Positions 10,155 through 63,772 of a DNA stretch of 64,000 bases are shown here, in pieces. The notes under the pieces are model-generated. The model was not told where the DNA came from and did no database searches. It was given only the letters and a program-made list of their open reading frames with translations. The stretch is taken from contig CM038915.1 in assembly GCA_021904315.1 (NCBI GenBank), positions 11,966,001 through 12,030,000 of the forward strand, read 5' to 3'. Position 1 is the first letter of the stretch. Each line of letters starts with the position of its first letter. A program made the translations under genes and the position numbers. The DNA comes from Sphagnum magellanicum (Eukaryota > Streptophyta > Sphagnopsida > Sphagnales > Sphagnaceae).

Positions 10155-10896
10155 GGGTGAAAACATGCTAAAGTATACCAAAAAATAATCCTCTCAAGTA
10201 AGAAAACACAAATTTGTGACAAGTAGATTAGAAAGTAGGTGATGCCTTAGGAAATTGTCCTTTTAAATTACATAAAGGTATCAAATGTGATATGTCAAAA
10301 TTTTTGAAGGTCTCAAAAGTTGTATCAACCTTTTCAAAAACCTATTTTCAATCTACTTTGCAAAATTTGCCAATTTGTCTTATTGTGAGAAAGTAGATTG
10401 AAAGTAAGTCCAAAAAAATTAAGTTGGAAATTTCATTCATATGTTGCATTTTGAAAGGGTTTAGGGCATGATTAATGAATCAAACACATGCAATGCACTT
10501 TAATATATATCATATGAAAAAACATGTTTTGGATGTCAAATTTGAATTTATCGAAAACTTATTTTTGAGGGGCTTCACATTGTCATAATCCAAAAATTTG
10601 AATTCCAAAAAATGTGTATCAAGGTGCATAATGGCTCAAACATTACTAACACATCATTTGAATTGTTTGATTTGGAAATGTGTAATATTAGCCAGAATAA
10701 TAAACTTTCAATAAATAAATAAATTAGTGAGAATAATAATATACATTAAGAACTATCATATAAGGTCTATTTAATATGATAAGTACACCCCAAAATTTAT
10801 GGCATGATTAAAGTGTTTAAAATGCAAAAGATTCTAAATCTACTTTTACTTGTTAATAAGGATCACCAATTGGTATACTTTACCATGTTTTCACCC
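10155..10896. mobile_element. GGGTGAAA-family TIR element (copy 1), 742 bp
   Basis: Terminal inverted repeats: the left end begins GGGTGAAAACATGCTAAAGT and the right end, read inward, begins GGGTGAAAACATGGTAAAGT. Both continue TATACCAA, so about 26 of 27 positions match. The flanks are AGTA at 10151-10154 and AGTA at 10897-10900, a perfect 4-bp target-site duplication. No transposase frame is inside, so it is non-autonomous. The near-identical termini suggest this is one of the younger copies. Confidence 0.85.
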
Positions 10897-16450: not shown

Positions 16451-17480
16451 GGTAATATAGCCTAAAATATTCAATAATAGCATAAGGTGAAATAACCTTC
16501 AATAGCCAAAAGTAACTAACAATAACCTCACATTACCGAAAATAACCTAAGATGAAATAGCTTAGAATAATCAAAAATAATTTAAAATGAAATAGCCTAC
16601 GATAGCCAAAAATAATTGTTAAAGGGATAAGCTGAATATGTGATTTAGGATGAACAAAACATTTAAAATAGGGATTTATCAAGGAATTTTTTTAGTTTGA
16701 ATTTTGAATTTTTGTTGTTTTGATTCATAATGATGTGACTTGGGATGGTTCAAAAGGGGGGAGAATTTTGGAGAATGGGGAGGAAGAAAATAAAATTAGA
16801 CATGGATTTAATTAGAAAAAAATAGGAGGAGCTAAAGGTACTTGCAATAGAAAACCACATACTATGTTTAGATATAAGATAGATTTTAAGTGTTGTTTTG
16901 GAATTTCTTTCAATAAAACATGAAATCAAATTATAATTTGGATTCATGTTTTCAGTAATACAAAAAAGCATAAACTTTTATAGTGAACTATATGTTCAAT
17001 TTTTGTGTGAACTTTTTGTAATGTTAAATTATGATGAACTGAATTGTAATCTTGTTTCTAGAGTTTTTTTATAATGTATTTTAAAATGTAGATTCTAGTT
17101 ATATGCAATAACCATGAATTTGATGTTGGAATGAATTATAGTGTTAAGTTTGTTGAGACTTAAGACAAAAATAGTGAACATAGGTATGTGAAATGCAAAT
17201 TTATTGTTACAATAGTGTGAAATATTATACAAGAATTTAAATTTTACTTCTACCAATAACTTACAATAGTAAAAAATAACCTAAGGTGAAATAGCCTAAA
17301 ATAGCCAAAAGTAACAAAAAATAACCAAAATTAATTTAGACTAACCAAAAATAACCTAGGGTGAAATAACTAAAAATAACCAAAAATAATTGGGAATAGC
17401 CATAAATAACCATAAATAATGTAGGGTGAAATAACTTAGAACAATGAAAAGTAGCCCTAAAATAGTTGAAAGTAGCCTGA
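16451..17480. repeat. Degenerate AATAACCTAAGGTGAAATAGCC tracts
   Basis: Two blocks (about 16451-16625 and 17262-17480) are built of AATAACCTAAG, GTGAAATAGCC and CAAAAATAA phrases. The roughly 640 bp between them is ordinary AT-rich sequence with no gene (one 73-codon minus frame without features). Confidence 0.6.
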
Positions 17481-19760: not shown

Positions 19761-22700
19761 TTGGAAGATTAGGCCCTAATCACCAAGCCCATGTGATAAG
19801 ATGTTATTACTAACACATCAAAGGTTTGCATTCATTACTAAATCATTCTAGTAGGATCACTTGTATGTCACTTAGTGTCAATTAAACATTACTTTCAAGT
19901 CAAAGCACATTATGGGTGAACCAATTTTCACCAAAAAAGGTGATGTATAACTAATATCATAGTACATAGTAAGTTCAAATTTTGATGGCATCATTTGATA
20001 ATCCTATACATAAGCAAAAAGCCCTAGAATGTGCACAACAACATTTTGGAATTCAAATTTCACTTCAAATCAAAATTAATCTTGATCCAATGATTAGATG
20101 AAGAGGATTGAATAAAATCAATGTACACAACATATATAATGTGCAATTTTTTGTTGACCATTAGGGCTCATGTTTGTGGTTCATAAAACATTACTAAACA
20201 AAAGAAATTTGAAAAAATAATGCAATGCCTAACTATAAAATCTTTTTCTCTTTCATTTGGTATTGGTTTTTTCTTTAAGTACATAAATTATTTTGCTTTT
20301 ATTGTTGAAAAAAATGAAAAAAACACATATTTTTAATGAGTCCTCAACCAAAAATTTTAAACTTCCAAATGGCCCTAGATTCAATTGATGTCTATCAAAA
20401 TCATTGACCACAAAAAATCCACCAAAAAATTCCATGCACAACTTTAGTTTTGAAATATGTATGCAATTTTTCATATTTCATGATGAATATTATTTTGTCA
20501 CAAATATATTTTATATGTTGAAGTTCATTAATGTTTGTAGGAGTTTTTTTTTTAATTGATTGTCTTAAGTCTAAATCTAATCCAATATATTTCAAACAAA
20601 CAAAGATAATCCAAGATGTGATGTCTATACTTACACAAAAAAAACCAATTGCAAAAATGCAATATTTGTGATTACAATTTTTGGGGCATAATGTGCTTTT
20701 ACCCTTTCCATAATGCCTAACTAGCACATTAGAGGTTCACATCCACTATACTAAACCTCTTTGGCAAATTGATTCAAGTATGTCACTTGGATGCCATTCA
20801 CTATCATCTAAGAATCAAATAACAACACATGATCAAATGTTTGATTTAATTCAGATCCACTAAATTAAACCATCACTTTAGTAAATCACTTAAGTATGAC
20901 ACTTGGGTGTCATCCAACCATCACCTTCAAGAATGGGTGATAACTTGCACATTATATGTTCACTTTCATTATGTATGTGTGTCATGGATGTGCCACCACC
21001 TATGCTAGTATCATTTATCAAAAAATGTCATTAAAAAAATTCTATTAGCATTACATGAAGCTACCAATACACCAATGGTGGAACCATGTCAAATTCACAC
21101 AATGACATATGCAGAACGTACACTACCTTCACTAAGGTCTCAATCTACTAGTCATCAAAGACAAGCACTCACTTTTGATGTCATTAGATCTCCTACAGTG
21201 TGTCACAAAACCTTGGATCTTGATGCACTAATAACATACAACACACATACATTTGCATTTGGGATGGATGGATTATGTACCTTGTCTTGCATGTCACCAA
21301 GGGTAGTATGATGGATCTTTTGTCCACTTCTTCAATGTGTGCTTCTGATGTTGCATGTAAATATACCATACGAAGTGACAATGACATGAAGAAGTGGCCT
21401 TTGGACTTAGTTTATCATTCATACATGTGTCAAACCAAACAATTTAAATGGCATATTCACTCATATGTCATAGCTAGGATATCACTTTGCTATCATTCCC
21501 ACCTTCAATTGACTTCAATTTCACCCAAAGATAATCACTAGATGTATGTCATTACATTGCACCCATGTTTCAATCACTTGCAAATCCCTTAACTTATCCA
21601 CTAATAGACATGGATTTTGAACCTTTTCAATGTTTTTCACCAACCTAAATTTGATCATTCAACTTAAGGCAATATTACTCACATCACTTAATGTTGAATG
21701 TCACTTTGAACTTGAAAACATAAACCAAGAGCTTTCCATTCAAGTCTAAGGCTTACATTCTACATTGTTCACACCTAATGTCACTCATTCATTGTGTTCA
21801 CATCTTTGTCATGCAAAAATGTTTCAATCATGCCAGTGTTATTCACCCATTCAGCTGTCATTCAATTACCACCTATGTACATCTCAGTAAGGGGTCAGAT
21901 TTGAGTGATTATGTCATTTAAAAATATAGTGTTGCATATCTACATGCACATGAATCTAAGATCTCCCTTAATAAATTATGACACACAACTTTTTTGAGGC
22001 TTCCACCAATATTTTCTTAGGTTCAAATTTATTTACTTTGGATTATTAGAAATTGGGACATCCTAGATGGGATCATTGTTAACAAGCGGTTGGAGAATTA
22101 TGGATGTCACTAGACATGATTTCCTAGGATTTCTCATAAGTTTCATTTCTTTTTTTGCATTTTATCACTTTGAGCATTTATTTAATTTGTGAGAAAATTG
22201 GACATATAATTCTTTTGGGCAAGAACATTCAATTATTTTTGGCTTAATGGGGTGCTCATGTACGCTATGTTCATTAACACAAACTAGGTGATGGCCATAG
22301 TAGAACATTGTTTGAAGCACACCTTTGATTTACATTGTTCAATCCAATTGGTGAAATCATTGAAATGGTCTTAAGGGAAAAAAGATTCCATGGGGGCCAT
22401 AGGGAACAGAAAAGAAACAAGTAGAAGGCAATAGCAGAAGGCTTGAATACAAGGCTAGAATACAAATAACATAATTTAACACTTATTACAAACTAGTGCA
22501 CTAAAATAAATTGTGTGGCCTTAAAAACATTAAGAGAATCCCAATCATAATTATAAGCCCACTGGCATCTCTTTGGTTCTTTATTTAGCCCCAATCTATT
22601 GAGCTCTTACAGGTAAGGACGTCATAGTTTTCCATTTTCCCAATCGTTCCTATTATGTTCCAATCATACTTTTCCCCACCTATTTGCATTTGGGAATCAG

Positions 22701-23280
22701 TCATTTGAAGTATCCCAAGACAAATTGAAACGCATCCATGTAATTTGTTGTTAATTTTTGGGATATACTAAAGCAACACTATAGCATATTCGCTCCACCT
22801 TTCTAGAATTAGGTCCTTCCCTCAATGAACATCACCCTTCTAGTACTTTCATTCCATTATTATCAATAGGTTCACTGTTTCCCTTGAACATCTATGTGCC
22901 TTTCCAATGTCGTACTATGTCCAATGTTGGGATTATTGTCAATATTTTTTAATGCATTGTGTAGGATAATGTTCAGTTTTTTATCTGCCACTAGTACTAT
23001 TCTTGTTGCATTGTCAATTATATCAATGAGATTTTATGTGAAAGGAAAATTACATCTATTCTCCAATTTAGTTCTCCTTTTGCATTCTTCCCCGTGACGT
23101 GGGATAACCTTTTTTGCACTATTGTTTCTATTGTCGCTTCATTTTACTAATAATGTGCTTTTGTCCTTTTGTGTCTCATGGTGAATTTTCTAATTTCAAT
23201 TCCTCATCTATTTTTCAATTTGAATTCTTCATGTAGTCTCATTTTTTATCTTCTTTTTTGTGATACTGTTGTGATAGGCT
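19761..23280. other. AT-rich intergenic, no gene recognised
   Basis: Only short frames without recognisable motifs. Parts may belong to the 5' side of the transposase relic that follows, but nothing can be assigned. Confidence 0.4.
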
Positions 23281-25670: not shown

Positions 25671-26164
25671 GTTTGGAGACCTAATCAAAATTGCTGCTGT
25701 AGTTACCAAGTACATTTCAAGCTTTAGTCTTTTGGCTTGAATATCGCACTTGGAAGGTGAGGAAGTGTTTGGATCAGCCAAACACAAGGCAAAGATAACC
25801 ATTCATCCACTATCCATCTTAGAACTAAAATGAGGTGCATACATTATTACATCGTGCCAAAGTCCTAGAAGTAAATTTAGGTTATAGAGTCATTAGATTG
25901 TTGTTAAATGGGATTGTTATGGGTTTTGTTCTGTTGCAAAAATGAAAATATTCTTAGCATTATGTGTGTAGTGCATTGTTCTCTAATTTCTCAAGCATTT
26001 TCCAATTGCATCATTATGTGGACTTTCTACCCTTGACTTATTGTGTGACTTGACTTAACTTACACAAGTTTTCATTGTAAGGTAGCTCCAACAAGTTTCA
26101 CCTTTGTGGATGAAGTTGGACATAAAAATTACGTGAATCTAGTAATCCAAACAATTCATCTATT
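25671..26164. other. AT-rich segment, no gene seen
   Basis: No recognisable feature; possibly the 3' noncoding part of the preceding transposon. Confidence 0.4.
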
Positions 26165-26425
26165 CCAATTATCATCCAAAGTTCATTCATGCTCCATGTT
26201 CATCCAAATATTTCATCTTTCTTGTAACTTTCATCCATGTAAATGTGGTTTTCATCCGTCATAATTGTTTTGGAATTAGTTCCATCCATGCATTTCAACT
26301 TGTCAAATGTTTCATTTAAATTATTTATCAACTTGTAATTATCATCCAAAAAGTTCATTGATGTTCAACTTTCATCCAAACTTTTCATCCATTTTGTGAC
26401 TTTCATCCATGTACATGTGGAAAAA
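26165..26425. repeat. 170-bp tandem duplication rich in TTCATCCAA
   Basis: A block near 26165-26250 (ATTATCATCCAAAG, then ACTTTCATCCATGTAAATGT) recurs about 170 bp later at 26335-26420 (ATTATCATCCAAAA, then ACTTTCATCCATGTACATGT). The internal motif TTCATCCAA repeats many times. Confidence 0.7.
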
Positions 26426-27359
26426 TATTTTTCACGTCATTCGTATGTGGCATAGGGGTATTCTAATAATGTTTTCTCCATGTCATCAAAATATTCCAAA
26501 AATATCCATTCCTACTCACAAGCTCATGCTCACATGCTCGCTTTGTGGCATTGTTGGGCATAAGAGATGCACAAAAAAGCTCAAACGTTAAGGAGAAAAA
26601 AAAAGTGCCAAAGTAGGGACATAGAAGGCAAAGGCATGCAAAGAGATGATTGCAAAGCACAAAAAGAACAATTCAAAAAGGCATGCACACATAAACACAT
26701 ACATAATTTTAAAAAGGAAAGGAAATAACTTGAGGAACATAGAAGAAGAAAAAAAGCGAGGCACAAAAAAGAAAAGTAGGTGTGAGAAGCAAAATGCGCA
26801 ATGTAAGACATGCATGCAATGTAGAATGCGAAGCAACACCAAAAAAAGTTGATAGTGAGAAGGACACAATGTGGTGATGTAGATCCAAGAGACAAAGAAC
26901 CTATTGTTGAATGAGAAGGAAAGATTGCCATTACTAACACATAGAGAGAGAAAATGCAAAACAAGATGACGAAAAAAATCATGAAATGTGTGCAATGTGT
27001 CAAAAGCAAATAGTAGCCTCAAACACCATTGCTATGAATGAGAAGAAGAGATCACTGTCACTGATGAGAACTGAAAAGCTTCATGTCATGTTGAAAGAAG
27101 AAGCTAAACGATTTGCAGGAAAAAAAAGGCAGATGACAAGCAGAGATGATGCGCAAAAAGAAGATGCATAGAGACAAAGAAACAAACATCAGCTCAACAA
27201 ATGAAATCATGAAAGGTGAAATGATGCACAGAAAGCACAAAGCTAGCCTTGTACACTACACTAGATCCACTCTTTAGGTTGGAAAGAAGCAGCTAAAGGA
27301 AAAAAGAAGCCAGAAAGAAATGGCTAAAGAGAGAAAGAAGCGACTTAGGGTAAAAACAT
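26426..27359. repeat. Purine-rich strand-asymmetric tract
   Basis: For roughly 800 bp the plus strand is strongly A/G-rich with recurrent AAGAAGAAGC, GCAAAGCA and GAGACAAAGAA phrases. The long minus-strand open frames (26581-27022) arise from this bias and are Phe/Ser/Leu/Cys-rich low-complexity sequence. On the plus strand at about 26535 the translation CSLCGIVGHKRCTKK resembles a degenerate CCHC zinc knuckle like those at the C terminus of some transposases. A real gene is unlikely. Confidence 0.5.
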
Positions 27360-46079: not shown

Positions 46080-47900
46080 GGCTACCTAGTAGCCTAGGCT
46101 TGGCTAACATAGGTTAATTTAAATTAATTTAGGCATTCATAATTTAATGTAAACCTATTTACCATAAATTAACGTATACTTAAACTAGGCTAAAGTAGTC
46201 TAAACTTGGCAAAATTTGATAAAACTAATATTAATTAAATTAAAATAGACAATTTAAAATAAATTTAACTAAATTTGGCAAAAATTAGGCTAAACTATAA
46301 CACGTAGGCAAAACTTAACAAAACATGGCTAAAACTTAGATAAATTCAGCTAAACTAAGGTATTGAAGCAAAATTTGCAAAATTTAGTTAAACATGGTTA
46401 TTTAGTTTAAACATGGAAAAATTTGGTTAAACATGACTATTTAGGTTAAACTTGGCAAAACTTGGTTATTTAGGTTAAACTTGGTTAGACTTGGAAAAAT
46501 TTGGCAAAACTTGGCTATTAATGTTAAATTTGGTTGGACTTGGAAAAATTTGGCTAAACATGGCTATTTAGGTTAAACTTGGCTACACTTGGCAAAACTT
46601 GGTTATTTAGGTTAAATTTGGTTAGACTTGGCTAAATTTAACACAACTTAACTAAACATGGTTAATTAGGTTAAACTTGGCAAATTTTGGCTAAACATTA
46701 CTATTTAGGTTAAACTTGGTTACACTTGGCAAAACTTGGTTAAACTATTAATGTTAAATTTGGTTAAACTTGGCAAAATTTGGCTATTTAGGTTAAATTT
46801 AACTAAACTTGGCAAAACTTGGTAAAACTTGGTTATTTATGTTAATATTGGATAGATTTGACTAAACTTGGCAAAATTTAGTTAAACATGGTTATTTTGG
46901 TTAAACTTGGCAAATTTTGGCTATTTAAGTTAAACATGGTCACAATTGGAAAAACTTAAATAAATTAGGCTAAACTAGGGTATTGAAAATAAACTTGACA
47001 AAATTTTTGATAATTAAGTTAAACCAGGGTATTGAAGCAAAACTTGGTAAAAATTGGTTTAAATTGGTTAAACATGGCTATTTAGGTTAAACTTGGTTAG
47101 ATTTGGTTAGATTTGGCAAAACCTAACTAGTTAAGTTAAATTTTACTACATTTGGCAAAATTTAGATGAATTTGACTAAACTAGGGTATCGAAGCAAAAT
47201 TTGGTTAAACATGATTATTTAAGTTACATTTTACTAAATTTGGTTAAACTTGGCCAAACTTGGATAAATTAAGTTAAACTAAGGTATTAAAGCAAAATTT
47301 GACAAAACTTGGTTTTAAAAAGCTACTTAGGTTAAATTGAACTAGACTTGGCAAAACTTGGATAAATTAGTTTAAGTAGGGTATTATGGCTAAAAATGCC
47401 TAAGCATGGCTAAACATGGCTATTTAGGTTATATTTGGTTATATTTAGAAAAATTTAAATAAATTAAGTTAAATTAGTGCATTCAAGTTAAACTTGGTTA
47501 AACATGGATAAATTTGGATAAGTTAGGCTAAACTAAGGTATTGAGGCAAAACTTGGCTAAATTTGGTTGAACATGGCTAAACGTGGCTACTTAATTTTAA
47601 ATCGGTTAGACTTAACAAAACTTTGAAAATTTTGGGAAAATTAATATATTGAAGTTATTTTTGTCTAAACATGATTATTTAAAAAATAAAACTTGGTTAA
47701 ACTTGGCAAAATTTGAATAAGTTAGGTTAAAATAGGGTATTGATGTTAAACTTAGCTAAACTTAGTTAAACATGGCTATTTAGGTTAAACTTAAATAGAC
47801 TTGGCAAAACATGGTTAAACTTAGGTTAATTTTGGTTAAATTTGCTTCAACTTGGTTGATTTGATTTTTTGAAAAATTAACTAAAATTGGCTAAACCAAA
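46080..47900. repeat. Degenerate TTAGGTTAAACTTGG array, right arm
   Basis: About 1.8 kb of units such as GGTTAAACTTGGCTAAAC, GGCAAAACTTGG and GGCTATTTAGG, in the opposite orientation to the array at 42720-44320. No regular long period is evident; monomers are about 8-15 bp. Confidence 0.8.
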
Positions 47901-48448: not shown

Positions 48449-48722
48449 AGGTGCAAATTTTTTAAGGTGTACCAAAATCTTGTCACAACATCACCCTTTT
48501 TTTGTATTTTTAACCTAATCCATTTTTACAATGTAAAGACACATTTATCGATGATTATGATGGAATCTAGAATTGTAATAGTTTATAATATAGTCCTTTT
48601 GAAAATTTTGACAACTTTTGATTTATTACTTTTATGGGGATCAAAATATAGGGTAAAAAAGGACTATAGTAAAGAATAGGCCCTTTTCATCCTATGTGGT
48701 ACACCTTAAATGATTTTCACCC
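48449..48722. mobile_element. GGGTGAAA-family TIR element (copy 2), 274 bp
   Basis: Left end AGGTGCAAATTTTTTAAGGT then GTACCA. Right end, inward, GGGTGAAAATCATTTAAGGT then GTACCA. It is the same element as copy 3 (54518-54788) in the opposite orientation, sharing the interior throughout. The flanks ATTA and TTTA agree at three of four positions. The 70-codon frame inside is incidental. Confidence 0.8.
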
Positions 48723-50236
48723 TTTAACATCAAGTTAAATCATTAAATCAATATCCAATGATGTTTAATTTTATCAAATCAAAATTAATGAACCACTTGA
48801 CAATTTGTTATTAACTGGAATTTTGTTCAAAATTTTTACACGTTGATAATTTTTGAAATGTATTCTACACTATCATTTAGTAGAACAAAATTCATGAAAT
48901 ATTAAATTTTTTTAATAACAAATGTTGGAATCTTTTGATGAAGTAACATTAATCCCCACTTTGACATTGTGATGTTTAGATTGTGATTATGAAGCTAACA
49001 ACCTCAAGTAGTATGGAACTAACAAATCAAATATTAAATTTCAATATAAAGGTACAATAATGTGGGTGTAATGCACATGTTTGCCTTCCATTCTAATTGG
49101 GGAAAATTGACAAATGGATTGTGATTCAACCCCCTTAATTAGCAAACCAAGTGACACATTATGAACAAACCATTTTACAACCACATGAATTTGAATCTTT
49201 TGTGCAAGTTCAAGATCATGTTTGCAAGATTATGGCAAAACAAATTAGGTAATGCCATCAATTCCATGTTCACAAATTAGTAAAATTGATGTATATATAT
49301 CTTGTTGTTATCCTTTTCAATTAGCTTAACACCTATTATTCAAGTCAAAATCAACAAATTTAAACGATGAATTTTTTTTGGAAACATATTCATTGAAAAT
49401 AAACATATTTTCTTGCCTATACATAATCTTCTTTACAAGAAAGAAGTAAGACAACATGGTAAAAGAATAAGGCAAATTTGTATATTTGAAAAGGATAGCT
49501 CAAAAACAAGAATGAGCCACAGCCATGTGTTCATAAATGTATGTTTACTATGAATTCACTAGGTTTCAACAATGCATCAAACTTTGGAATATGAGTGGTT
49601 TTCACATCTTATATTAACAATTGTTGTGTCATATATGCTAACATCAAATAAGTATCTATTTTGCATGATTTGGTTACATTTATAAAAAGTTAAACAAGGG
49701 ATTTAATGTGAAGCAAATATTTCTCACACTAGAAGGAATCTTGTCCTTTGCAACCAAGAAAACAATGATGAGAACTCCTTAATGACTCTATGAATGACTA
49801 TATTCGTATAATATAATTTTTAATTTTACATGGAAAAATAAATAGTCATTTAAATGAAATGTTTTTGTCCCTAATGGATGATAATATTACATATGGTAAT
49901 AATGAAATCATTAGTTCACAAAAAATTTCATGCATGAGACATTCATGACAAAGGAAAAAATGATGCAAACTTCTAGTTGTCATTTATATGATCTTAAAAT
50001 GACTATTGTTTAAAATGACTTTAACAATGATGACCTAGTTTTTCAATGTAATTATCAAATGATTATATTTTGAACAACATGATAATTGATGTATGACTAA
50101 AGAACGATTATTGCAATGACATGGATAATATTGACATTGTAGTTTCAAGTGATTGTGAAATGATTAAAATATGAAAAACTAACTGAAAATTGATTACAAA
50201 AATGACTAATGTATAATGACATGGGTAATGTTGACC
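48723..50236. other. AT-rich intergenic, no gene seen
   Basis: No recognisable coding or structured feature on either strand. Confidence 0.5.
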
Positions 50237-50345
50237 ACCTAGCTAATACCTATTTACCTACCCACCCACTCACCCTTCCACCTACCTATATTTACCTACC
50301 CACTCACTTACTTCACTTACCTACCTACCTCTTACTTACCATCCT
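50237..50345. repeat. Degenerate (TACC)n microsatellite
   Basis: Runs such as CCTATTTACCTACCCACCCA and CACTTACCTACCTACC. A small inverted repeat (GCATACTACCTAC with GTAGGTTTGC) follows at its end. Confidence 0.8.
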
Positions 50346-50433
50346 ACAATTTGCATACTACCTACTTTGTAGGTTTGCAATGATATAAAATAAACATGTG
50401 AAATAAAAAACTTGACAAAAATTGGACATCTTT

Positions 50434-50680
50434 TGATGGTTTAGTCCATTGGTAAAAACTTGGTTTATCATTATGGAGCTAAGGGGTTCAATTTTTAATA
50501 CTTACAACCTATGTGCATTCCTAAAAAGCTAGGGTAGGTAGGTTAAACTAAAACAATTAATTAAATAGGTTATATTAGGTTAGATTGGCTACATTAAGCT
50601 ACACCTACTTGCCTATTTGCCTTTTTCAACTTGCCTAAACCTATTACCTACCTATCTACTAGAAATTATTTTTATAATAA
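50434..50680 (+). repeat. tRNA-derived SINE-like element (copy 4)
   Basis: A box-A-like GATGGTTTAGTCCATTGGTA starts near 50435, and a weak box-B-like GGTTCAATTTT lies at 50485-50495. Downstream, the GCTAGGGTAGGTAGGTT tail resembles the TAGG-type sequence after the other three copies. It is the most degenerate copy. Confidence 0.4.
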
Positions 50681-51823
50681 TCCAGGAAAATGATTTTAAT
50701 CTAGGTATAAATTTGACTAATCAAATGGTCCATTAATTGTAAGTCATATTATAATCATTCATTACTATGACACCGTAACAATATATATGATTTTTCTTCT
50801 ATGATGTTTTATATAACTTGACAATTGTCTTTAATTATGAATATCGGATGAAAAGTGTCACTTCAACCATTCAATGACTTCTTGTCCCAAACAACTCATC
50901 TGACATTACTAAGGGCCCTTTAATCATATAGTGTTTAATATGACTACAAACTCAATCATAAATGAAGTCACATATTTAAGAATTTGTTTTATAATCAATG
51001 GTTCAATGATGGACAATATGAACATGAAATAACAATTTGTTTAATTATTAATGAAAAAATAGATTAATTATGAAACTCAAAACTAACAAATGTTAATCAA
51101 ATGTACTCAATGTTAATATTGCATTGGATCATCTACAAAGTTATTTGTACATAAACTTAACAAATGGAGCTTATGTGAGACAAATATTTCCCCAATATTT
51201 TAACGATTGGTGTGAAACAAATAATTTTTTGATTCATTTTAGTGGATTGATTATGAAACTTATAAATAACCAATGTTAATAGAATTGTTGTTACATTGAA
51301 TTATTTAAAGTATCAATGCATTTTGTTATGGGGGTTCATTTTTTTTTGTATTAGAAAGCTACACGATTAAAAATGTAAAGTCTCGTATATTGATTATTGG
51401 GTTAAAATATAATTCAATTAGTTTTATAATATGATTGGGTTTGTTTTTAAATTCCAAATATAATTAATATAGGTATGAGAAAAATAAAACATAAGATATA
51501 ACATATATATAATAAAATTATAATTGGTATTAATTATTACTTTAAGTTCAATTAATAGGATGAGAAGGTGTAATTTATACTATTTAGGTTCATACTATAA
51601 GAGATAACATTAATGAAATTTTACCTAGTCAAAACAAGGAGTTAATTTATGAAAACATGGATGTAACAACTTGGTGGTACATTTATTTGTTTACTTTGAT
51701 TTTGGAACTTAAAACATCATTTTTTCTTCGTATATTTCTTCCCATGGAAAAAATTAAAATATTCATTGTTTATAAGGACTTTGTAGGTGCTAGATATGGT
51801 ATTCATCATTTGAAATGTAATTT
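50681..51823. other. AT-rich intergenic, no gene seen
   Basis: No recognisable feature. Confidence 0.5.
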
Positions 51824-52609
51824 GGGTCAAAACCTATAACTAGGAGCCAAAAGGATTACTTTGGAAAAGGACTACAAGTCTTTTTTCCCAAAAATAACTT
51901 TTACATGCAAATGAATTTTTGAATGAATTTTTTTGTAATTTGTTCTAAAAAATATTAAAATTTTCGCCAATTCATCACATTTTTGGTTAGTAATTGTTGA
52001 ATAAATATGATTTTTAAAAATTGTGTTGATTCCTTACAAATTCAATGTTTCATCTTGAAAAATGATCAAATTTTAAATCATCATCAAAAATTTAAAATTC
52101 ACATTATTTAATTTTATTATACTCTAAGCTATAACTTTTCTTAATACATCATGTACATTATAATTCATTTATATGTGGTAAAGGACTCTTAAAACTTTGA
52201 AATTTTGAAACAATTTTGAAACATTCTTTGGATTTTTAAAGTTTTATAATTTCACATTTAAAAAATCATGAGCGTTTTTTGAGTGTGGCTAATATGTTCG
52301 TATCATCTATATTTTTTTCAATTAATTTTTTAATATTATATGAGTCCTTTTGATAGTCCTTTGCAAATTTAATTCCATTTGACATAATAGGTGTACATTT
52401 TCAAACATCCTAAATTAAAACCAAAATTTAAAATTGGATGAAACGAATTTTTATTTTCTAAGTTCCTTGACATTCATATGAGGGAAAAAGGACTAACTTG
52501 CCATGATTACTATGATTTTATATAGTAATAAAATAAATATATATTTAATTTTGATTGATTATGTTTAATATCCAACACCTTTTTGGCTCCTAGCTATGTG
52601 TTTTGACCC
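51824..52609. mobile_element. GGGTCAAA-variant TIR element (copy 7), 786 bp
   Basis: Left end GGGTCAAAACCTATAACTAG then GAGCCAAAA. Right end, inward, GGGTCAAAACACATAGCTAG then GAGCCAAAA. The flanks are ATTT at 51820-51823 and ATTT at 52610-52613, a perfect 4-bp duplication. The interior (for example TTGAAAAATGATCA, TTTAAATCAT) is shared with copy 8 at 56558-57309. Confidence 0.85.
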
Positions 52610-54517
52610 ATTTGGTAATTTGAAATGTTTATTGATGTGTTTCTAAAATTAAATTTGAACATTTCATGCATGATTCTTTTGTAATCATGCATAATTGCCT
52701 TAATATTTTTTTCATTGCTTCTCACGCCTTCTATTAAATATATGGTGCCAAAATTCAATGCAATAATAAATAAGTTATATATAATTTAGTTTAAGGTGGT
52801 TGAAGTATGTGAACATTAAAAAAATTAAGTAGTAATTGGGTGGGAAAATTCACATAATACCCTTCAAACAATACCCTCAAGTTGACATATGTAGTGGGAA
52901 GAATTAATACATAGTGACCCCCTAGGTATTTTTTTCACATAAATGATCGCAATTTCACATTAATGTTTTGCTTATATAACCATGTGCTTTCCACAAATTT
53001 TATTGTTGCACTCTACATTTCACTTCGAAAAAATCCCTTAAATTGTTGTTCACATAAACACAAAAAACACATGGAACCAAAATTCTGTAATGATGAACTT
53101 TATTTGCCAACTTATGCTTCAAGGGATGGTTTGCGCCTCCTTCAACCAAGTGGAGCTAGAGGCAACCATCCAAGAAATAATCTAGATTTCTTAAAATTGA
53201 TATGCACAATGCATTAGTGTTAGTTTGATATCAACTTTCAAACATACCAACTTGGTCTTAGAATTAGGTAATTTATTTCAATTTTACATATTAGTATAAT
53301 ATTGGTATTGAGTTGAAAATTGATTTTAGATATGTGGTGAATATATATTTAGTTTAGGAATTGGTATAAATTTGACACTTGAGGCTACTATTCTTTCATG
53401 TCATGTCCCTTTATAGGTTGGTAGTTGTTACAATGTTAATATTATTTACAAATCACAAAAAAAGTTGTGATGGTTTCTTGTGGCCTAGATGGATGCATTT
53501 GTTTTAAGGTCAAACCTTGGGATATTAAAAAGAGTATCACCAAAATGCAAAGATTGGCCTTGAGACATCAATTCCTACACCTTTGGACTTGAAGTCCTAT
53601 GACATTTGTAAAAGTTCTAGGACCTCAAGGCTTGAAGGCCTAGGACATGATGACTTGAAAGCTTAGGATTTAAGGTATATACAAGCCTAAAACATTAAAG
53701 CTCAAGGGTATAAAACATGAAGGATTAAGGGTTTAAGGTGTGAAGGTAGTGCAAGGGCTTACATTATGAGAAAATTGTGTCCACAACGACCACACCAATT
53801 TACAAGTGTATGTCCATATCAACTACATTACAACTAGGTTGCAACATTGGAAAATGATTAATTGCACATGTGTTTTAAAGAAATTTCAAGGGTATGGAAT
53901 ATTTTGAACATATTTTGGTCAACTATACAATTTTGGTGATCAATGTGTGTTGACTTTTTGTTTTAGTTGTTTTATAGTTGTAATATGCAACTTAGGCACC
54001 CAAATGCAATTATGTAGATTGCAAAGTCCTTATACAAACACAGATAATGTGGGAAATGCCAATAATTGGCATGGACGTTATTGTGCCATATGCATGGTCA
54101 TTGTGTTAACCCCATGTGCAACCACCTTGCAACTTTAATGGTACTGCATTGTAATTAAATATGAATTTTAATTCATAGTTAACCGGTTTTGACTCATACC
54201 ACCAAATATCATGGCTACAATCTTTGATTCCAACATGACTAAATGCCAACTATAATACATCAATGTTTCATCAACTAACCACCTACATAATAGTTTGGTG
54301 GTACATTGGAATTTAGACATGAATGTAAATTGTCAATGTACAACTCAAGTACATAGTCTAAAATGCCCTTAGTTTACCTTAATGTCTTCTATTCCTCTTT
54401 GAATTGCTTCATCCATAAGAGTTGATTCCTTTGCTAATAATTCCTTAACCCATACAAGATTTAGGTTTTAGGGTTTGTGTGGCATTGTTAAAGAATTAAT
54501 TAGCCTTGGTGCATCAT
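52610..54517. other. AT-rich intergenic with weak AGGACTTGAAGGCCTA repeats
   Basis: No gene recognised. Between about 53540 and 53760 the phrases GACTTGAAGTCCTA, GGCTTGAAGGCCTAGGAC and GACTTGAAAGCTTAGGA recur as a degenerate short repeat. Frames at 52963-53217 and 53947-54138 lack motifs. Confidence 0.45.
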
Positions 54518-54788
54518 GGGTGAAAATTGTTTAAGGTGTACCACATAGGACAAAAATGGCCTAGTCCTTATTATAGTCCTTTTTTACCCTATAACTTGAT
54601 CCCCATAAAAAATAATGAGTCAAAAGTTATCAAAAAATTTAGAAGGATTATACTTTAGACCATTACAATTCTAGATTCTATATAATCATTCATAAATGTG
54701 TTTTTACATGATAAAAAAAAACTAGGTAAAAAAGACAAAAAATGGTGACATTGTGACAAGATTTTGGTACATAAAACAATTTGGACCC
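54518..54788. mobile_element. GGGTGAAA-family TIR element (copy 3), 271 bp
   Basis: Left end GGGTGAAAATTGTTTAAGGT then GTACCA. Right end, inward, GGGTCCAAATTGTTTTATGT then ACCA. The flanks are TCAT at 54514-54517 and TCAT at 54789-54792, a perfect 4-bp duplication. The interior is the reverse complement of copy 2. Confidence 0.85.
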
Positions 54789-56557
54789 TCATCATCTATA
54801 CAAACATTGCAACTTGATGTGGTCTTTGCAATGACCCCATGTGCAACTATTTTACAATTGTAACAAAACTATGTTGTAATTAAAAAATAATTAGTTTGTG
54901 ATTAGGTTATGATTTTTCAATTCAATTTCAAGGCAATTATAGATTGAACATCCTCCAAAGCATTCATCCATTTCTATTTGCTTTGAAACCCTTTGTAACT
55001 TTGAGAATGTTGATCCAATTACAAATGGATGAATCCTAATGTGCAATGGAGTTTGAAATTTGTACCATTACAAGTTTATAAGCTTCCATGAAAGAAGCTT
55101 CCATGAAAAGTTTATATGAGAAGCTTCCATGAGAAGCTTTTATAAGAAGCTTTCATTAAAAGTTCCCATATATTGCATCGAATTCTTTTTGAAGTTATTT
55201 TTTTCTTTTCAATGCAGTAGATGTTGAAATCATAATGGAATAACACACTCATGTACTATGATTCTTTGGATCCTAGTTTTGTTTTACCTCTTAGTTTGCT
55301 TCTATTTCATCATGGAAAAAAATTAACAACCCTCAAAACATTAGAGTTTTAAATGAGAAGGAATGTTGTTGCCAATTCCAAAAATACAATATATGTGGTG
55401 TCCGTTGTTGAAAAACAAGTAAAAGCCTAAAGGATGATCAAAACATTTGTCACTAACCACAACTATTAGCAAATTGTTGTACTATAAAAAATTATTTATA
55501 TGAAAGATCATTACTTTGTAAATTTTTTTAGGTTTTGCTATTATTGTTTATTTTTTCTTTTTTTTGTTATATGTGGGATGCTTGGTAAATTGGTATGCAT
55601 CCTTCTCATGGTTAGTTTTTCTAATGGAGTTTATTAGGAAATGATTAAAATATAACTTGGTGTTGAACTTGTGTGGATAGAGGAGAAGTGATGGTCACCT
55701 TAATTGGTAGACATGGCCTTCAATGACGTTTGACTTGATTGTGGTGAGTAACCTCCTTACTTGTCACTTATTTTCATTTAATTGTCACATGTTAAGTTTC
55801 ATTGTTTTGCACGAAAGGTATGTAAGTTGGATAGTGGGGAAACTAGTTGACTTTTAGTTGAATTGTAATTGTATACAAATACAAACATTGCAAATTATGA
55901 GGTGCATAATGTGATGAAGCTATAACCATGGCATGCAATTCATGTTGGCACTCATTTGTGATGTGCTAATTAAATATTACTTACACTAGTACATGTTTGA
56001 ATTGAGTCCTTGTTAATTAACACAAGTGAACAATTCCATGCTTATGTTAGTTATAATTTCTAGTTGCATTTGCTCATGGTAATGAAACTTTAGAAAAAGG
56101 ATGGGCAAATAGGTGGGTGCAGGCTCCATGTGGAATAGAATGGGGGCATTGGAAACTAGGTGATGACACCTTTGGGCACTAATATGATAGTTTGGTGTAC
56201 ATCATTGCTGATGATATTAATTATAAAATAGTTACCATGTAATTTGTGTTACTTGCAACATGGGATCATTTGCTTACAACATAGTTGCAAGAATGTTTCA
56301 CAACCATTTTTATTAGTTGCAAATTAGCACTCCATCCCTTGGTTGTAAACCAACACCATGTAATGAATTCCAACAATTACAATTGGAAAATGTGTTAAAT
56401 GTAATCAATTGCACCTTAATATTAAGCATATTGAATTGAAAATTATAATATGATGACATTGTTACCCCTTATAATCAGAAAATCAAATTTATATATTATT
56501 TAATTGAATAACACCACTAGAAAAGAACTCATGTAGTGGTAAGCTAGTGGCATTATT
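54789..56557. other. AT-rich intergenic, no gene seen
   Basis: The only structure noted is the short AGAAGCTTCCATGA repeat at about 55075-55165, listed separately. Confidence 0.5.
55075..55165. repeat. Short AGAAGCTTCCATGAA tandem repeat
   Basis: Five to six degenerate copies of AAGCTTCCATGAAAG or AAGCTTTTATAAG at about 14-20 bp spacing; most carry a HindIII site. Confidence 0.8.
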
Positions 56558-57309
56558 GGGTGAAATCATAATCAAATGAGCCAATGGTGACAAAGGATTC
56601 AACCACAAATGGGCATTTTTTGAACATTTTAATTTTTTCATAAAAAAGATTTATTGAAAGATTTTTTTGAAAACATGTTCTTAAAAATATTTACAATTTC
56701 CCCAATAAATTACATTACTTGTGTTAACCTTTTTTTGAATAAATATGAAATTTCTAAAAATTTACAAATTCTACTAGATTTCATGTTTCATTTTGAAAAA
56801 TGATCATAATTTCAAATCATGCTAAAATATGATAACTATTTTAAGCTTTAGTTGTATCATAAGCCACAACTTTATTCATATGTCACACACATTATCACCC
56901 ATTTACATCTAACAAATGACTCTTGAAATTTGAACATTTATTACACTTTAAATTTATAAAAAATTCAAGTACCACAAATTTATAATTATAATTTTTTTTC
57001 ATGTGGATGGTAGGTTATCATCATTTCAAAAGAAATTCATCAAAATTTATTTATTAAAAGAATCTTTAACCTAGTGTTTTGTAAAACTGATTTTGGGGTG
57101 CTAAAGTTCAAAAGTCTTTTACTAAAACTAAAACTCAATTTAGTAAATTACACGATTTAAAAAAATTCTTCAACATTCATATAAATCATTCAAAAAAAAT
57201 TCCTTGATCAATATGACATTAAAATGGCATTACAAAAATATGTTTGAAAAATTGATAATTTTTCAATTGTCCGACATGGTTTTTGGCTTGATTGATTATG
57301 CTTGCACTC
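56558..57309. mobile_element. GGGTGAAA-family TIR element (copy 8), 752 bp
   Basis: Left end GGGTGAAATCATAATCAAAT then GAGCCAA. Right end, inward, GAGTGCAAGCATAATCAATC then AAGCCAA. The flanks are TATT at 56554-56557 and TATT at 57310-57313, a perfect 4-bp duplication. It shares interior sequence with copy 7. Confidence 0.8.
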
Positions 57310-57428
57310 TATTACCAATTTTTGCACAATGATATTTCAAATCTTTTATAAGTGCATAATAAAAACATGATTGTCACAACATAGTCCCACATGTGAGGCC
57401 TTCCAAGGTCACAAAACAATGCTTACAC

Positions 57429-58078
57429 GGGTGAAAGCACATTAGGGTGGAACAAAAATGGCACATCGTGACAATCCAATTTTAGTCCATTATGAAATAA
57501 AATACACTAGGAAAGTATGACAAAAACAGGTAAAAACAAGATATTTTGAATCAAATGGGCCATATGGCAAGGTGTTATAAGATATTTTTCCATAAGGATT
57601 TAAGCATCTTTAGTTTATTTTATGATAATCTTATACTTGAAATATGAGCATCTAAATCATTATTTTCAATAAACGAAGGACTTCCTTCATAAGCTTCATA
57701 CTTGATATACATCTCAAAATTTAATCATCAAATCTTTTCAAATTGTTTTATTTAATATCAATTTGCCACAATATTATATTACCATTGAGTCATTTATTCA
57801 TAAATGACATTATATCAAGGTGTATTGAGTCCATTTAATTGATCTTTGATTAGACATGTGTTTTTGTACTACTTTAAAAGTCCATAACAAATTGAATGCC
57901 AAAAGATTTGACCATGAAATTTTAACATAATATTTTGATGTATGAGTTCATTCTTGACATGAGTCGCATTTCATAATTTGCACATATCAATTGGAATAAA
58001 CTACTATTGAAAATTTAAAAACTATGAAAAATGGACTTTTGGACATCCAAAATGTAACACCTTAGTGTATTTTCACCC
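57429..58078. mobile_element. GGGTGAAA-family TIR element (copy 4), 650 bp
   Basis: Left end GGGTGAAAGCACATTAGGGT. Right end, inward, GGGTGAAAATACACTAAGGT. The flanks are ACAC at 57425-57428 and ACAC at 58079-58082, a perfect 4-bp duplication. No coding capacity. Confidence 0.85.
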
Positions 58079-59513
58079 ACACCATTATTAGTAATTGCAC
58101 CATAGTATTCAAATCAATTATCATATGATTATTTTCAATCCAATAACCAAACTTTTAGTTGCAAGATAATATCTAATTATGAAAATGTAGTTATGGAAAA
58201 TTACTTTAAAAAAGATGTTAGTTATTAATGAAATGCCTCTTTGTCACCAAAATCCTACATTAGTTGTAAGGTAGTTCCATTTTAGTTGAATTATTTTAAT
58301 ATGTGTTGGATGAATGAAAATCAATGAACTTACCATGTGCCACAATGTTTGTTTTCCTACTTAACATCACCAGTAGAAATTGGCCAAAATGTAACCATTA
58401 TATTTGCGACTACATGCAACTATTAATTATTTGTAACTATTTCTTGTGTTGGTCATATTTACAACTACAATGCAACTAGTTTGTAACTATTTTGGTGTTC
58501 ATCTTTCCATGTGAACAACATTTAGTTTAATTTTCATCCAAGAAGAACAATTTATGTCCCATTAGTTGCAAATGTGACCAATTCAGTTGTAACCTTATGA
58601 ATATACAAAGGTGTATTTTGCGATTTCTAAGGAATATAGTTGGGTGCATTAGGATTTATAAATGTATATTTTGAATTTATATGAACAACCATATTAGATG
58701 TACATTCAAGTAGTATTATTAGCGTAAATAGCCTTGATATTATGGTTACATTAAATAGTGTATATTTTGAATATATTACAACTTTACGTAAGATGTTTGC
58801 TAACTATATTATGCCCATATTAAAAGTTCATCCAAACCATCTTATTATATTTCTTAAAATTATTACAAATGACATTTATTCTTATTTGTATTAATATTAA
58901 TTGCATGTAATAAAAAAATTAATACATTAATATGTTATTATTAAATTATTTTCAAATGATTAATTAATTTATTAAGAATTAATCTTTATTTATTGAGAAA
59001 TTAATTAATGATATATAATTTTTACTTTCAGTTTTATTATTTTACTATTTTATAGTAATTATTGCATTAGTTAGAATGGAAATCTGAAATTATTTTTGAA
59101 GGAGAAAATATAATTATTAAAAATATAAAATATTTATTATAATAGTTCATAAATAGCTTTACGGAGTGAAATAATAATATGAATAATAAAATTAAAATAG
59201 TTAATTTTGGCTACCAACTTCCTACAATAATAATAAAATTAATGTTATTGCTACTATTAAATATTTTCATTTACATTTATTACTAACTATATAAATGAAA
59301 ATAATAATGGGAATAATTTAATAAAATAATTAGCCTAGGATGGGTTTAAATTATATTGTTAGATATAAAAAATTATTATTTAATATTTATAATTAATAGT
59401 TAATAATGATTAAAGAATGAATATTTGAATTATTATATTAATTTATTTGGTTTAAAAATATTTTCCTAGTTATTATTAATTAGCTAATTAGTTATCACTT
59501 ACCTACTTAATTA

Positions 59514-59667
59514 TATATTTTTCAAGATGAGAATGAAAGACAAAACATATGGGATAAAATTTTTAGTTACAAGTCGTCTGCGACTAAACATTTTTAGTCA
59601 CAAACAACTTGTAACTAAAATTTTTATCCCATATGTTTTGGCTTTCATTTTCATTTTGAAAAGTATA
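59514..59667. repeat. Near-perfect 154-bp fold-back hairpin (copy 1)
   Basis: The arms are about 70 bp. The left arm begins TATATTTTTCAAGATGAG and contains AAAACATATGGGATAAAA; the right arm, read inward, begins TATACTTTTCAAAATGAA and contains the same AAAACATATGGGATAAAA. The centre is TAAACATTTTTAG. It lies inside the CACTA element. Confidence 0.85.
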
Positions 59668-59783
59668 TAAACAAGATGTTTTGTCTCACATTTTCATATT
59701 TAAAAAGATGGGCATATGGGATGATTCAATAAAAATGACTTAACCCAAAATAAAATATAAATATTCATGTATTTACATCTAAC

Positions 59784-59945
59784 TACTTACTTCCCTAACT
59801 TACCTACATACTTTTTTACTTACCTACCTACATAAGTAGGTATTTGGCATGGGTAGGTAAATAGGTCATATTTAAATACATGTTTAGCTTAGATAGGTAA
59901 GTAGGTATATAAGTAAGTAGGTACTTAGTTTAACCTACATACCTA
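59784..59945. repeat. Inverted (TACC)n / (GGTA)n arrays
   Basis: CTTACCTACATACTT and TTACTTACCTACCTAC on the left face GTAGGTAAATAGG and GATAGGTAAGTAGG on the right, giving a loose palindrome of tetranucleotide repeats beside the hairpin. Confidence 0.6.
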
Positions 59946-60623
59946 AATATTGATTTAAATTTAATTTGGAAAAATTAACAATTAATATGCCACGTGGCAA
60001 ATTTATATTGCACCACGTGTCACAATCCAAACCATCCAAACATAAAAATTAAACGGTTTAAATTATTTCAAAATAATAATAAAATATTTGTAATTATTAA
60101 TATTTGGGACATGTGGCAACACATAACTTGTTCCCATTGTTCACAAAAAAAAGTTGCATCTTAGTTGTAAGTGACAATACATATATGACCAGTCAAAGGA
60201 TGAAGGTGTATTTCATTGACTTTTTTTTTCATAAAAAATTTCTTGCCATTTGCGACTAGTGTCAATGTGACTTGTCCAACATGACTATTGAGATTTTAGT
60301 TGTAAATGTCGCTTGCAACTAAAAATTAGTCGCATGGACCAGTTGCAAAATGGCCATTTTCTACTAGTGCATGTGGCAATGAGTTGTCCACTTTAATTTC
60401 TAGTTGCAAAGCAGTTGCACTAAATTGTACATATTTTTGCCATCCTATATGTTGAGTTGCACCATTGCAACTAATGCAACTTGTCTGATGCAATTAACGT
60501 TGTATGTTTATGATGAATTGCAAGTGGCCATTGTAATTAGAAAATGTGGTTGCAAGCCAAATTATAAAACCTCCATTTTTTTCATACTATTAGAAAATGA
60601 TGGTTTGAAAGCTTCAGACATTA

Positions 60624-61277
60624 GGGTGAAAACATAGTCAAAGAAGTCAAGGGTGCCAAGGTAAAAGTCATTTTCCAAGTATGCACATGACATGTGTCAA
60701 TTTTTGTTTTGGTTTATAATTTAAAATTTTGTATAAATTTGGATATCCAGTTTAACATTACATGTTAGATATAAATATGTTTTGATTACAAATTTAATTT
60801 ATATAATATATATCATGCATTCATGCCCTTTATCAAATAAATATGAATAACTTTTTTTAAGGGCACATTGTCAAATTCCATAATTTTCAAGGACAAAAAC
60901 ACATTTGAACCAAATATGCTAAAATCAATTATAAAAACAATTTTCATTTGTTCAAGTCCTTTTGCCCTTCTAATCATCAATGTTAAAATATTTTCCAATT
61001 TTTAGAAAGAATGGTACACATTTGGTAAAAAAAAGAAGATGTTTGAAAAAAAAAAGGATTGTCCACTTTGAGGTTTGAGTACTTTGAACATGTAAAAACA
61101 TTTTTGATTTGTGTCAAGCTTTGAGCATGTAAACTTTGCAATTAATGGAAAATATTGAAATTTATTTTATGGTAATCCGAATTATTATACTTCCCTTATG
61201 ATCTTTTAGACATACAAAAATGTAGTTTTAAGGAGTGTCCACTCGCTTAGGTGGTTCCTTTAACTATGTTTTTACCC
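60624..61277. mobile_element. GGGTGAAA-family TIR element (copy 5), 654 bp
   Basis: Left end GGGTGAAAACATAGTCAAAG. Right end, inward, GGGTAAAAACATAGTTAAAG. The flanks ATTA and ATAA agree at three of four positions. The ends resemble those of copy 1. Confidence 0.75.
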
Positions 61278-62040
61278 ATAAAGGCTTAGGGACAATTTAA
61301 ACCATGTTGAAAACATTTCCCCATGTTCGTTTGTTTGTTGAGCTTGAGTTGTTAGACCCTAGGCCACAAAAGTTTTATTCCAAGACAAAACAAAGGTTAT
61401 GGCTTTTAAGGATTTTGGTGTAAGGTTGAAATATTTTGGAACATTTTGACTTAGGCTAAGAATATTTTTGGGCATTTTCCCTTAATGTTAAATTTTTTAT
61501 TGAGTAAGATTGTTGGATTTAACCATTTTTTATATTTTTTAAAAGTAAGGAGATGGTTTCACCCATTTGTGATTTTTTTCTTTCCTTTATGTTGAAATCT
61601 TTGCATGAAGATTTGAAATTTTTCTATTACTAGTGAGGAACACTATTATAAAAAAATCACTTTATCACTTCAATTTGAGACTAAAAACTAATTGTAAATG
61701 ATTGGCATAATTGAAAATTTCATAAGTTGCATAAATGAAATGATACCCAACATGTAATCACAAATATGATTTAAACATGACATTAACAAATGACCTAGAT
61801 GGATGAAATATACATTCACACATATATTTCATCCTTTGATCATATAATTATTTGTAACTATCTACCACTATTTAAAACTTCAATATCACTGACTACACAT
61901 TGTCACATGTAAGGGCATATGTAAATTTAAATTATGAAAATTAAATAACCTTTTTTATATCTAATTTATCCAATTGGATGATTTAGGATTGTTTCACATG
62001 GACCAATCACATTTTTCAAAATTTCACATTAAATTTCAAA
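61278..62040. other. AT-rich intergenic with two possible CACTA-type ends
   Basis: No gene seen. TTTTTCTATTACTAGTG at about 61622-61638 and CACTATTATAAAAAAATC at about 61650 look like CACTA-type ends facing away from each other. Neither partner could be found in the window. Confidence 0.35.
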
Positions 62041-62204
62041 AAAATAATTTAACAATTTAAGTAAGTAGGTAGGTAAATAGATAGGTAAATATGTTGGTAA
62101 GTCAATTTATAAAAATAGGTTTAGCCTTTTTTATTGATTCATCCCAAATAACATTTTATTTTTCATGTTTTTTCTGTGTTTTCAACATTTCAAATACACC
62201 TTTT

Positions 62205-62355
62205 TATATAGTTTACAAGATTGAAATGAAGGACAAAAAATATGGGACAAATCTTATAATCATAATCTAATTACAAACTAATTTACAACTAAATTGCAGC
62301 AATTTTTTTTTGTCCCATATCTTTTGTCCTTTTTTTTAATGTTATAAACTATATA
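62205..62355. repeat. 151-bp fold-back hairpin (copy 2)
   Basis: Left arm TATATAGTTTACAAGATTGA with AAGGACAAAAAATATGGGAC. Right arm, inward, TATATAGTTTATAACATTAA with AAGGACAAAAGATATGGGAC. Same size and same ACAAAA-ATATGGGA core as the hairpin at 59514-59667. GGTA-type repeats lie to the left (about 62055-62100) and CTACC-type repeats to the right (about 62400-62470). Confidence 0.75.
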
Positions 62356-62479
62356 ACTAGATGTGCACAAGGAATTTTTTAATCCTTAATTAAAAAAGTT
62401 ACTACCTACCAACTAATACCTAGCCTAGCCTATTACATATTAACCTAACTTAATACCTATTAATTAACCTAATTTACTA

Positions 62480-62830
62480 ACTAAAGTAGTTTACGTCACA
62501 TTTAAGTTAAACTTTGGTTAAATCACAACTTGGTTAAACTTTACCAAAATGAAAACTTAATTAAACATTGGCAAATTTATTTTTAATTAAACCTTGATTT
62601 AAACTTGAATGTTTTTTTGTTTTGAAACTAGAGAAATTGGCTAAACCTTGGTGAAACTAGAATTTAGTAAACCTTTGGCTAAACCTTGGTTAAATTAAAA
62701 CTTGGATAAAGTTTAGTTAAATTAGGATTCGGCTAAACATTGGCTAAACAAAAACTTGGTTACATATTGGTTAAATTTTGACTAATATTTGACACATTTA
62801 ATTTAACCATGATTATAACTTTAATACAAG
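62480..62830. repeat. Degenerate GGTTAAACTTTGG array
   Basis: Units such as TTGGTTAAACCTTGG and TTGGCTAAACATTGGC, in the same orientation as the right arm of the palindrome at 46-48 kb. Confidence 0.7.
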
Positions 62831-62976
62831 TTTAATATACATGGAATTTTTTTAATACAATGGTAAAACCCTAATAAAATTTTGATCCCTAATAAAATTT
62901 TGATACTAAACCTTAAAAGTACCTTAAACCCTATTCATAATATAACTTTAATACACCCTATAAATGTACACTTAAT

Positions 62977-63772
62977 GGGTGAAAACACATGGGGAGGGGG
63001 GGGGGCAACTTGGGTAGTTTCACGACATGTGTGTAAAATATACACTGCAAAATGTCTTGCATTTAATTTTGGGTTTCAAATTCGATGTTTGGGATTTACA
63101 TTTTGATTTTCATAAAGTTAATGATATCTCATATTATTTGAAATAAAGTAATTTAGAAGATTAAATTCAAGGGATAATGGGTATATTTATGGTATATGTA
63201 GTATAATATAACATGCTTTTGTTTTTAGATTGCATTAATTTTTGGTTTGAATTAGTCAACCAAAAATTGTTTGAAATGAAATTAAAAAAATGGCTAACCT
63301 CACATATCTTGTCATATTCCATTTGAAAATGATTTTCGTCAAAATTTTAAGTTACCACATATTATGTATTAGCCATGAAAAACAACAATTTGTGATATCA
63401 CATGGCTCCTAAACTTATTCCAATCACATGGAACCACAAGGTTTAATAGATGCTACAAATTTCATGAAATTAAAAAATCATTTCAATCATTTCTTGAATG
63501 TATATGCATTTTTTACTACATTCTGATGTATATTATTTTGGTTCAAATATTCTAACATCACATCATATGAAAATGAAAAAGAAAAAGAAAAAGTGTATAG
63601 TTTATTTGGCATTTTTTTTCTTTAGGTTTTGACCTACCATAATATGCAAAAACATTGTGATTTTTTTCATTATAATGACATGATTGAAGTTCAAACTTGG
63701 GACCCCTAAAATGAAATGTAATGTGAAAACAATCTTGCGCCCCCCCACCCCCCCATTAGTGTGCTTTCACCC
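62977..63772. mobile_element. GGGTGAAA-family TIR element (copy 6), 796 bp
   Basis: Left end GGGTGAAAACACATGGGGAG followed by a G run. Right end, inward, GGGTGAAAGCACACTAATGG followed by G runs. The flanks are TAAT at 62973-62976 and TAAT at 63773-63776, a perfect 4-bp duplication. The G tract near one end and C tract near the other are part of the inverted repeat. Confidence 0.85.

Follow-up and report, generated by a model that had tools for sequence, protein, structure and literature searches.

Among the terminal inverted repeat (TIR) transposon superfamilies of plants, the relevant section of PMC10741241 includes Sola, which has 4-bp target site duplications (TSDs) and variable ends and is present in the moss Physcomitrella, and Ginger, with TSDs of 4-6 bp and TG..CA ends; the same section gives TSD lengths for mariner, CACTA, hAT and Mutator (7-12 bp in the last case). 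AT-rich 4-bp TSDs are also described for Sola2 elements of amoebae in the corresponding part of PMC3627910. A survey of miniature inverted-repeat transposable elements (MITEs) in 207 plant genomes sorts them by TIR and TSD into mainly five superfamilies plus Micron (PMC12550479), and elements with 4-bp TSDs would probably be misfiled or dropped under such sorting. The main text of the Sphagnum genome paper (PMC9946827) makes no mention of transposable, DNA transposon, MITE, TIR or Sola. We analyzed a stretch of 64,000 nucleotides from Sphagnum magellanicum (hereafter the window; positions 11,966,001-12,030,000 of contig 9) by comparison with the whole genome of 438,994,042 bp in 31 contigs. 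The window contains nine or more short elements that have GGGTSAAA-type inverted ends, lack a recognizable gene and come from several large families. We propose, with a probability of roughly 0.9, that these elements are MITEs, that is, non-autonomous elements mobilized in trans through a 4-bp staggered cut, whichever the superfamily.

All eight elements that had been proposed in a sequence-only reading of the window are present at their coordinates with the expected ends, and the 4-bp duplications were reproduced in the window flanks, six of them perfect: E1 (10155..10896, 742 bp, TSD AGTA), the two ends of which agree at 25 of the first 26 bp; E3 (51824..52609, 786 bp, ATTT); E4 (54518..54788, plus strand, 271 bp, TCAT); E5 (56558..57309, 752 bp, TATT); E6 (57429..58078, 650 bp, ACAC); and E8 (62977..63772, 796 bp, TAAT). 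The flanks of E2 (48449..48722, minus strand, 274 bp, an inverted member of the E4 family; ATTA/TTTA) and E7 (60624..61277, 654 bp; ATTA/ATAA) match at three of four bases, so that the matches across the 4-bp flanks of E1 to E8 are 4, 3, 4, 4, 4, 4, 3 and 4; no strand was assigned to elements other than E2 and E4 in this set. The count of eight was incomplete, a ninth element having been overlooked at 19897..20704 (minus strand, 808 bp, perfect TSD TTTC), with the ends GGGTAAAAGCACATTATG and decayed AAGTCAAAGC; it was recognized via a MITE in locus L069 (74% match). The nine elements range from 271 to 808 bp in size. The inverted ends of the original eight are GGGTGAAA/GGGTCAAA or derivatives thereof, and the common terminal repeat, GGGTSAAAACAT..., spans approximately 26 bp and finishes near CCA.

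The length of the duplication was examined in genome copies of three families (E4, E1 and E5; n=72) by comparing the left flank with the right flank in registers 1-12, which removes the selection bias of the sequence-only reading. The genome search, with queries that included 20 bp of flank, covered six families (E1, E3, E4, E5, E6 and E8), and the best 40 candidates were scored for each. In the E4 family (29 copies of the 39 listed besides the element itself), the mean match is 0.84 in register 4 vs 0.26-0.38 in the other registers; the corresponding values are 0.82 vs 0.24-0.38 for E1 (29 of 39 listed copies) and 0.86 vs 0.21-0.39 for E5 (14 of 39). When loci with shared left flanks are removed (7 for E1 and 1 for E5) and truncated copies are counted as misses, 64 insertions remain, and three or four of the four bases agree in 56 of these; duplication of the surrounding repeat accounts for the common flanks of several E1 loci. 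The perfect TSDs, including the six from the window (38 rows), are AT-rich and varied. Alignment of the flanks of genome copies thus upholds the 4-bp length in all three families, and no other register shows such a match.

This result bears on the possibility that the duplication length was misread in what are atypical members of PIF/Harbinger, Mutator, hAT or mariner, which might be suggested by the GGG-type ends of some Harbinger and Mutator elements. Harbinger elements duplicate 3 bp (TWA). None of the registers 2, 3, 8, 9 and 10 shows an excess in any of the three families: the match in register 2 is 0.36-0.39, which indicates no TA duplication, in line with the varied TSDs; in register 3, it is 0.33 in each of the E4, E1 and E5 families, with perfect 3-bp matches in 0/29, 1/29 and 0/14 copies; in register 8, it is 0.30, 0.31 and 0.30, with no perfect matches; and across registers 7-12, it is 0.24-0.38, with no perfect 7- to 12-mers in the E1 and E5 families (the E4 family was counted to 8 only). 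For the E1, E4/E2 and E5 families, the register-4 match therefore excludes duplications of 2, 3, 8 or 9-10 bp and refutes a misread length; in the case of E3, E6, E7, E8 and the ninth element, the assessment covers the window copy only. Overall, we consider this explanation very improbable. Neither CACTA/CACTG ends nor a 3-bp TSD was found. By TSD length and ends together, Harbinger, hAT, Mutator, mariner and CACTA are excluded for the E1, E4/E2 and E5 families. The earlier statement that the common superfamilies do not fit accordingly stands for these three families; the statement that a 4-bp TSD is unusual has to be qualified, given that plants are known to harbour Sola, with 4 bp, and Ginger, with 4-6 bp.

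Could the ends be chance inverted octamers in AT-rich DNA? Octamers with one mismatch occur frequently in the window (83 and 78 sites), and exact GGGTGAAA shows a modest excess genome-wide (16,105 and 16,013 occurrences on the two strands vs 14,588 and 14,477 with the reversed sequence as control). Among exact GGGTSAAA pairs with a spacing of 60-3000 bp in the window (n=7), four have a 4-bp TSD vs approximately 0.04 expected. When the flanks were displaced at random in 20,000 trials, there were no perfect 4-mers in 18,551 trials, one in 1,408, two in 40 and three in a single trial; the observed number is six of eight. Homologous genome copies with the same boundaries and the register test refute the chance explanation, the probability of which we regard as negligible.

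The first look at the genome, which searched the elements against their host as had been suggested, returned between 178 and 1755 candidates in the six families: 244 for E1 (39 scored besides itself), 1755 for E3 (39 others at 84-88% identity), 893 for E4, 1578 for E5, 178 for E6 (27 others near full length at 87-91% and 12 partial or more diverged) and 800 for E8 (71-83% besides itself). Because only 40 candidates were scored per family and the families may overlap, these copy numbers are indications only. By hand count, 31 of the 39 starts and 29 of the 39 ends of E3 copies fall within 3 bp of the TIR, as do 26 of the 27 starts and 24 of the 27 ends of near-full-length E6 copies. One E6 copy, at C6:20500988-20502541, is split at query positions 420-422 by approximately 0.9 kb, probably owing to a nested insertion into E6.

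Within the window, BLASTN (E 1e-3) unites E2 and E4 in one family (83% across their full length, in inverted orientation) and detects 320 bp in common between E3 and E5 at 71%; E8 matches the ninth element over 54 bp, and E1, E6 and E7 yield self-matches only. The previously suggested subfamilies (2 with 3, 7 with 8, 1 with 5 and 4 with 6) are therefore unsupported. Under the superfamily rule of Repbase, as worded in the applicable passage of PMC4455052, members have an equal TSD length and can be aligned over positions 1-11 with at most one mismatch. In the alignment of ends over these positions, from which the ninth element was left out, E1, E3, E4/E2, E6, E7 and E8 are linked by at most one mismatch; the ends of E5 are two mismatches from the nearest element, one over the limit, yet E5 has the 320-bp segment in common with E3. 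Both the 4-bp TSD and the GGGTSAAA-type ends are upheld by genome copies in the three families tested; instead of one family, there are several with a common terminal sequence.

Paralogous empty sites, which had been sought as support for insertion, were found in three cases. In locus L036, an E4 copy breaks a gene-like repeat that runs unbroken in L090, with 80-83% homology on either side; the reverse-strand homology of L090 to L036 resumes at neighbouring bases (3795-5327 and 5326-6816). The filled site in L036 is GTGATGAA|element|TAAAGTAAGTGAT (the right side also given as TAAAGTAAG), with an insert of 274 bp, and the empty site in L090 is GTGATGAAGTAAATGAT (also given as GTGATGAAGTAAATG), where a single TGAA corresponds to TGAA/TAAA around the L036 insert. 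In L076, an E5 copy with the flanks ttat/ttgt is nested in an E5 relative of 68-71% identity. The MITE in L069 has the flanks tcta/tcct; neither the window nor L071 contains it at the corresponding position. An E1 copy in L058 lies within the 3' part of a repeat that is also present in L090; this junction is blurred because of small length differences.

A Copia-type retrotransposon family that carries an E1 MITE has been amplified together with it (L043, L044, L045, L052 and L063), with shared flanks and an RVT_2 domain just downstream. As a source of an empty site, this family was set aside: each of the five listed copies that span the site has E1, and a sixth match (C17) begins beyond it, so that the case neither supports nor refutes the insertion.

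By frame length, the view that the eight elements lack coding capacity is borne out, judged by length alone: the longest stop-to-stop frames in E1 to E8 are 58, 76, 53, 44, 56, 45, 62 and 65 amino acids (aa), and the longest in the majority sequence of the E1 family is 54 aa. It had been proposed to search for a longer copy that has the same ends and encodes a transposase; none was found between GGGTSAAA ends in the loci examined. When a weight matrix built from the terminal 26 bp was applied to 290,311 bases of these loci, pairs beyond the known families were detected at spacings of 601, 645, 656, 984 and 1264 bp, and 42 ends remained unpaired. Among the matches listed for open reading frames (ORFs) of at least 60 aa across the loci, only the Copia-type repeat and a repeat with a 161-aa frame recur beyond the MITEs. 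Of 16 selected ORFs compared with Pfam, two matched RVT_2 (one repeat family), one Integrase_H2C2 and one DUF2921_N, and 12 had no match. A literature search for GGGTGAAA together with transposition returned, to judge by title, no paper evidently on such TIRs among those listed.

The 161-aa open frame (window 24710-25195, plus strand) belongs to one of mostly interrupted copies (best 150 of 600 candidates scored), and its protein has no relative in Pfam, NCBIfam or viral contigs. It lies in a decayed, abundant repeat (window 23277-26539), the 3' part of which carries TTCATCCA-type repeats. Both this repeat and an element encoding DUF7869 (PF25273) are abundant and presumably transposase-like; the pieces compared with Pfam had no match, while the DUF7869 profile does find candidates in the genome. 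Further copies of the former in L069-L072 (L069/L070 and L071/L072 are near-identical pairs) lack a convincing GGGTSAAA pair flanking the gene, and no TIR/TSD pair could be placed where the homology ends on the 3' side, near window 26539-26556. The repeat was rejected as the autonomous partner, GGGTSAAA ends not having been seen in the copies examined.

Among the known enzymes that might mobilize these elements, we tentatively consider one of the Sola type the most probable; the elements would then be non-autonomous members of a superfamily with a DDD transposase and 4-bp duplications that is present in a moss. The TSD length observed in the E1, E4 and E5 families agrees with this assignment. 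The DUF7869 profile yielded 259 candidates in the genome, of which the best 150 were scored; we associate DUF7869 proteins with Sola-like DDD transposases, and a text search of the literature for DUF7869 with transposition found nothing. Against the assignment, the E4 and E1 insertions in the DUF7869 element loci (L036, L090, L058 and L020) sit inside as guests; the 3' boundary common to L090, L058 and L020 is ..AAATATGTGTT, not GGGT; and L090 (9.4 kb), the sole DUF7869 copy with wide flanks, shows no GGGTSAAA pair flanking its gene, which is weak evidence, the only reported pair being weak and off the gene (673-1815). With GGGTSAAA ends not seen, the DUF7869 element was not retained as the partner, a rejection that rests on the weak evidence of this one copy. 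PF07592 (ISAzo13-type transposase), which we assume to have a possible tie to Sola, was dismissed as well (zero profile matches).

An unrecognized superfamily is about equally likely as a Sola-type enzyme. With their GGGTSAAA ends and 4-bp TSDs, the elements could represent a DNA transposon superfamily that is undescribed, or unrecognized in plants, a serious possibility at somewhat less than even odds; the ends and TSD together were matched to no known superfamily here, an absence that reflects the limited comparison as much as biology. The more specific version, in which the GGGTSAAA elements are debris of an undescribed 4-bp-cut superfamily that was very successful in peat mosses and has a transposase outside the Pfam families, appears rather unlikely.

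Irrespective of the superfamily, the elements have the structure of MITEs: they are short and without a recognizable transposase gene, have TIRs and a TSD of fixed length, and occur in many homogeneous, dispersed copies (six families) with defined boundaries, short frames and paralogous empty sites. Several observations weigh against the proposal that they are trans-mobilized MITEs. The TSD is perfect in only 32 of the 64 insertions, and the flanks agree at only three of four bases in all three empty-site cases. Copies diverge from the majority sequence by 4-12% in the E4 family and 5-9% in the E1 family, and candidates past the best 40 per family carry no score. The Copia family with E1 has no empty copy among those listed, all five copies that cross the site holding E1. 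The minus strand of the ninth element contains a stop-to-stop frame of 100 aa, judged by length alone. Finally, no autonomous partner was found (five transposase-like regions: L069-L072 and L090), because of which we infer, rather than observe, mobilization in trans. In the proposed mechanism, a transposase encoded elsewhere would bind the common terminal repeat and cut the element out, and insertion would take place at AT-rich targets by way of a staggered cut of 4 bp, the repair of which would produce the 4-bp duplication. An ordinary mechanism, probably non-autonomous cut-and-paste, with a duplication length uncommon in plants, is well supported. The presence of six such families, each with 178-1755 first-look candidates, bears on the annotation of moss genomes, and the defined ends provide a handle for finding the partner transposase.

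Other features of the window include exons with similarity to genes for glutamyl-tRNA reductase, for a GTPase of the Ras type and for an NAD-dependent epimerase, and large degenerate tandem arrays at 15907-16617 (AATAGCCACC.. units) and 46321-47896 (AAACTTGGCTATTTAGGTT.. units). Two foldback elements, at 59511-59670 (89% palindromic) and 62196-62364 (72%), have GACAAAA..ATATGGGA segments of their arms in common and perhaps form a separate MITE family.

Compared with the known plant MITEs (Tourist, Stowaway, Mutator-like and hAT-like), the Sphagnum elements are similarly short, TIR-bounded, present in high copy number and without a recognized gene, but differ in a TSD of 4 bp as opposed to 2, 3, 8 or 9-10 bp. 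Chapaev elements have 4-bp TSDs, a likeness to the CACTA/Chapaev (CMC) group, and ends that start with CAC, whereas the Sphagnum elements start with GGGT; the CAC start of CACTA is given in the pertinent part of PMC10741241. Ginger, in the same part of that source, resembles the Sphagnum elements in its TSD length range and its occurrence in plants but has TG..CA ends in place of GGGT..ACCC. Sola (Sola1/Sola2) resembles them in its 4-bp TSDs, AT-rich in some cases, and its moss record; it differs in that no Sola transposase is tied here to GGGTSAAA ends.

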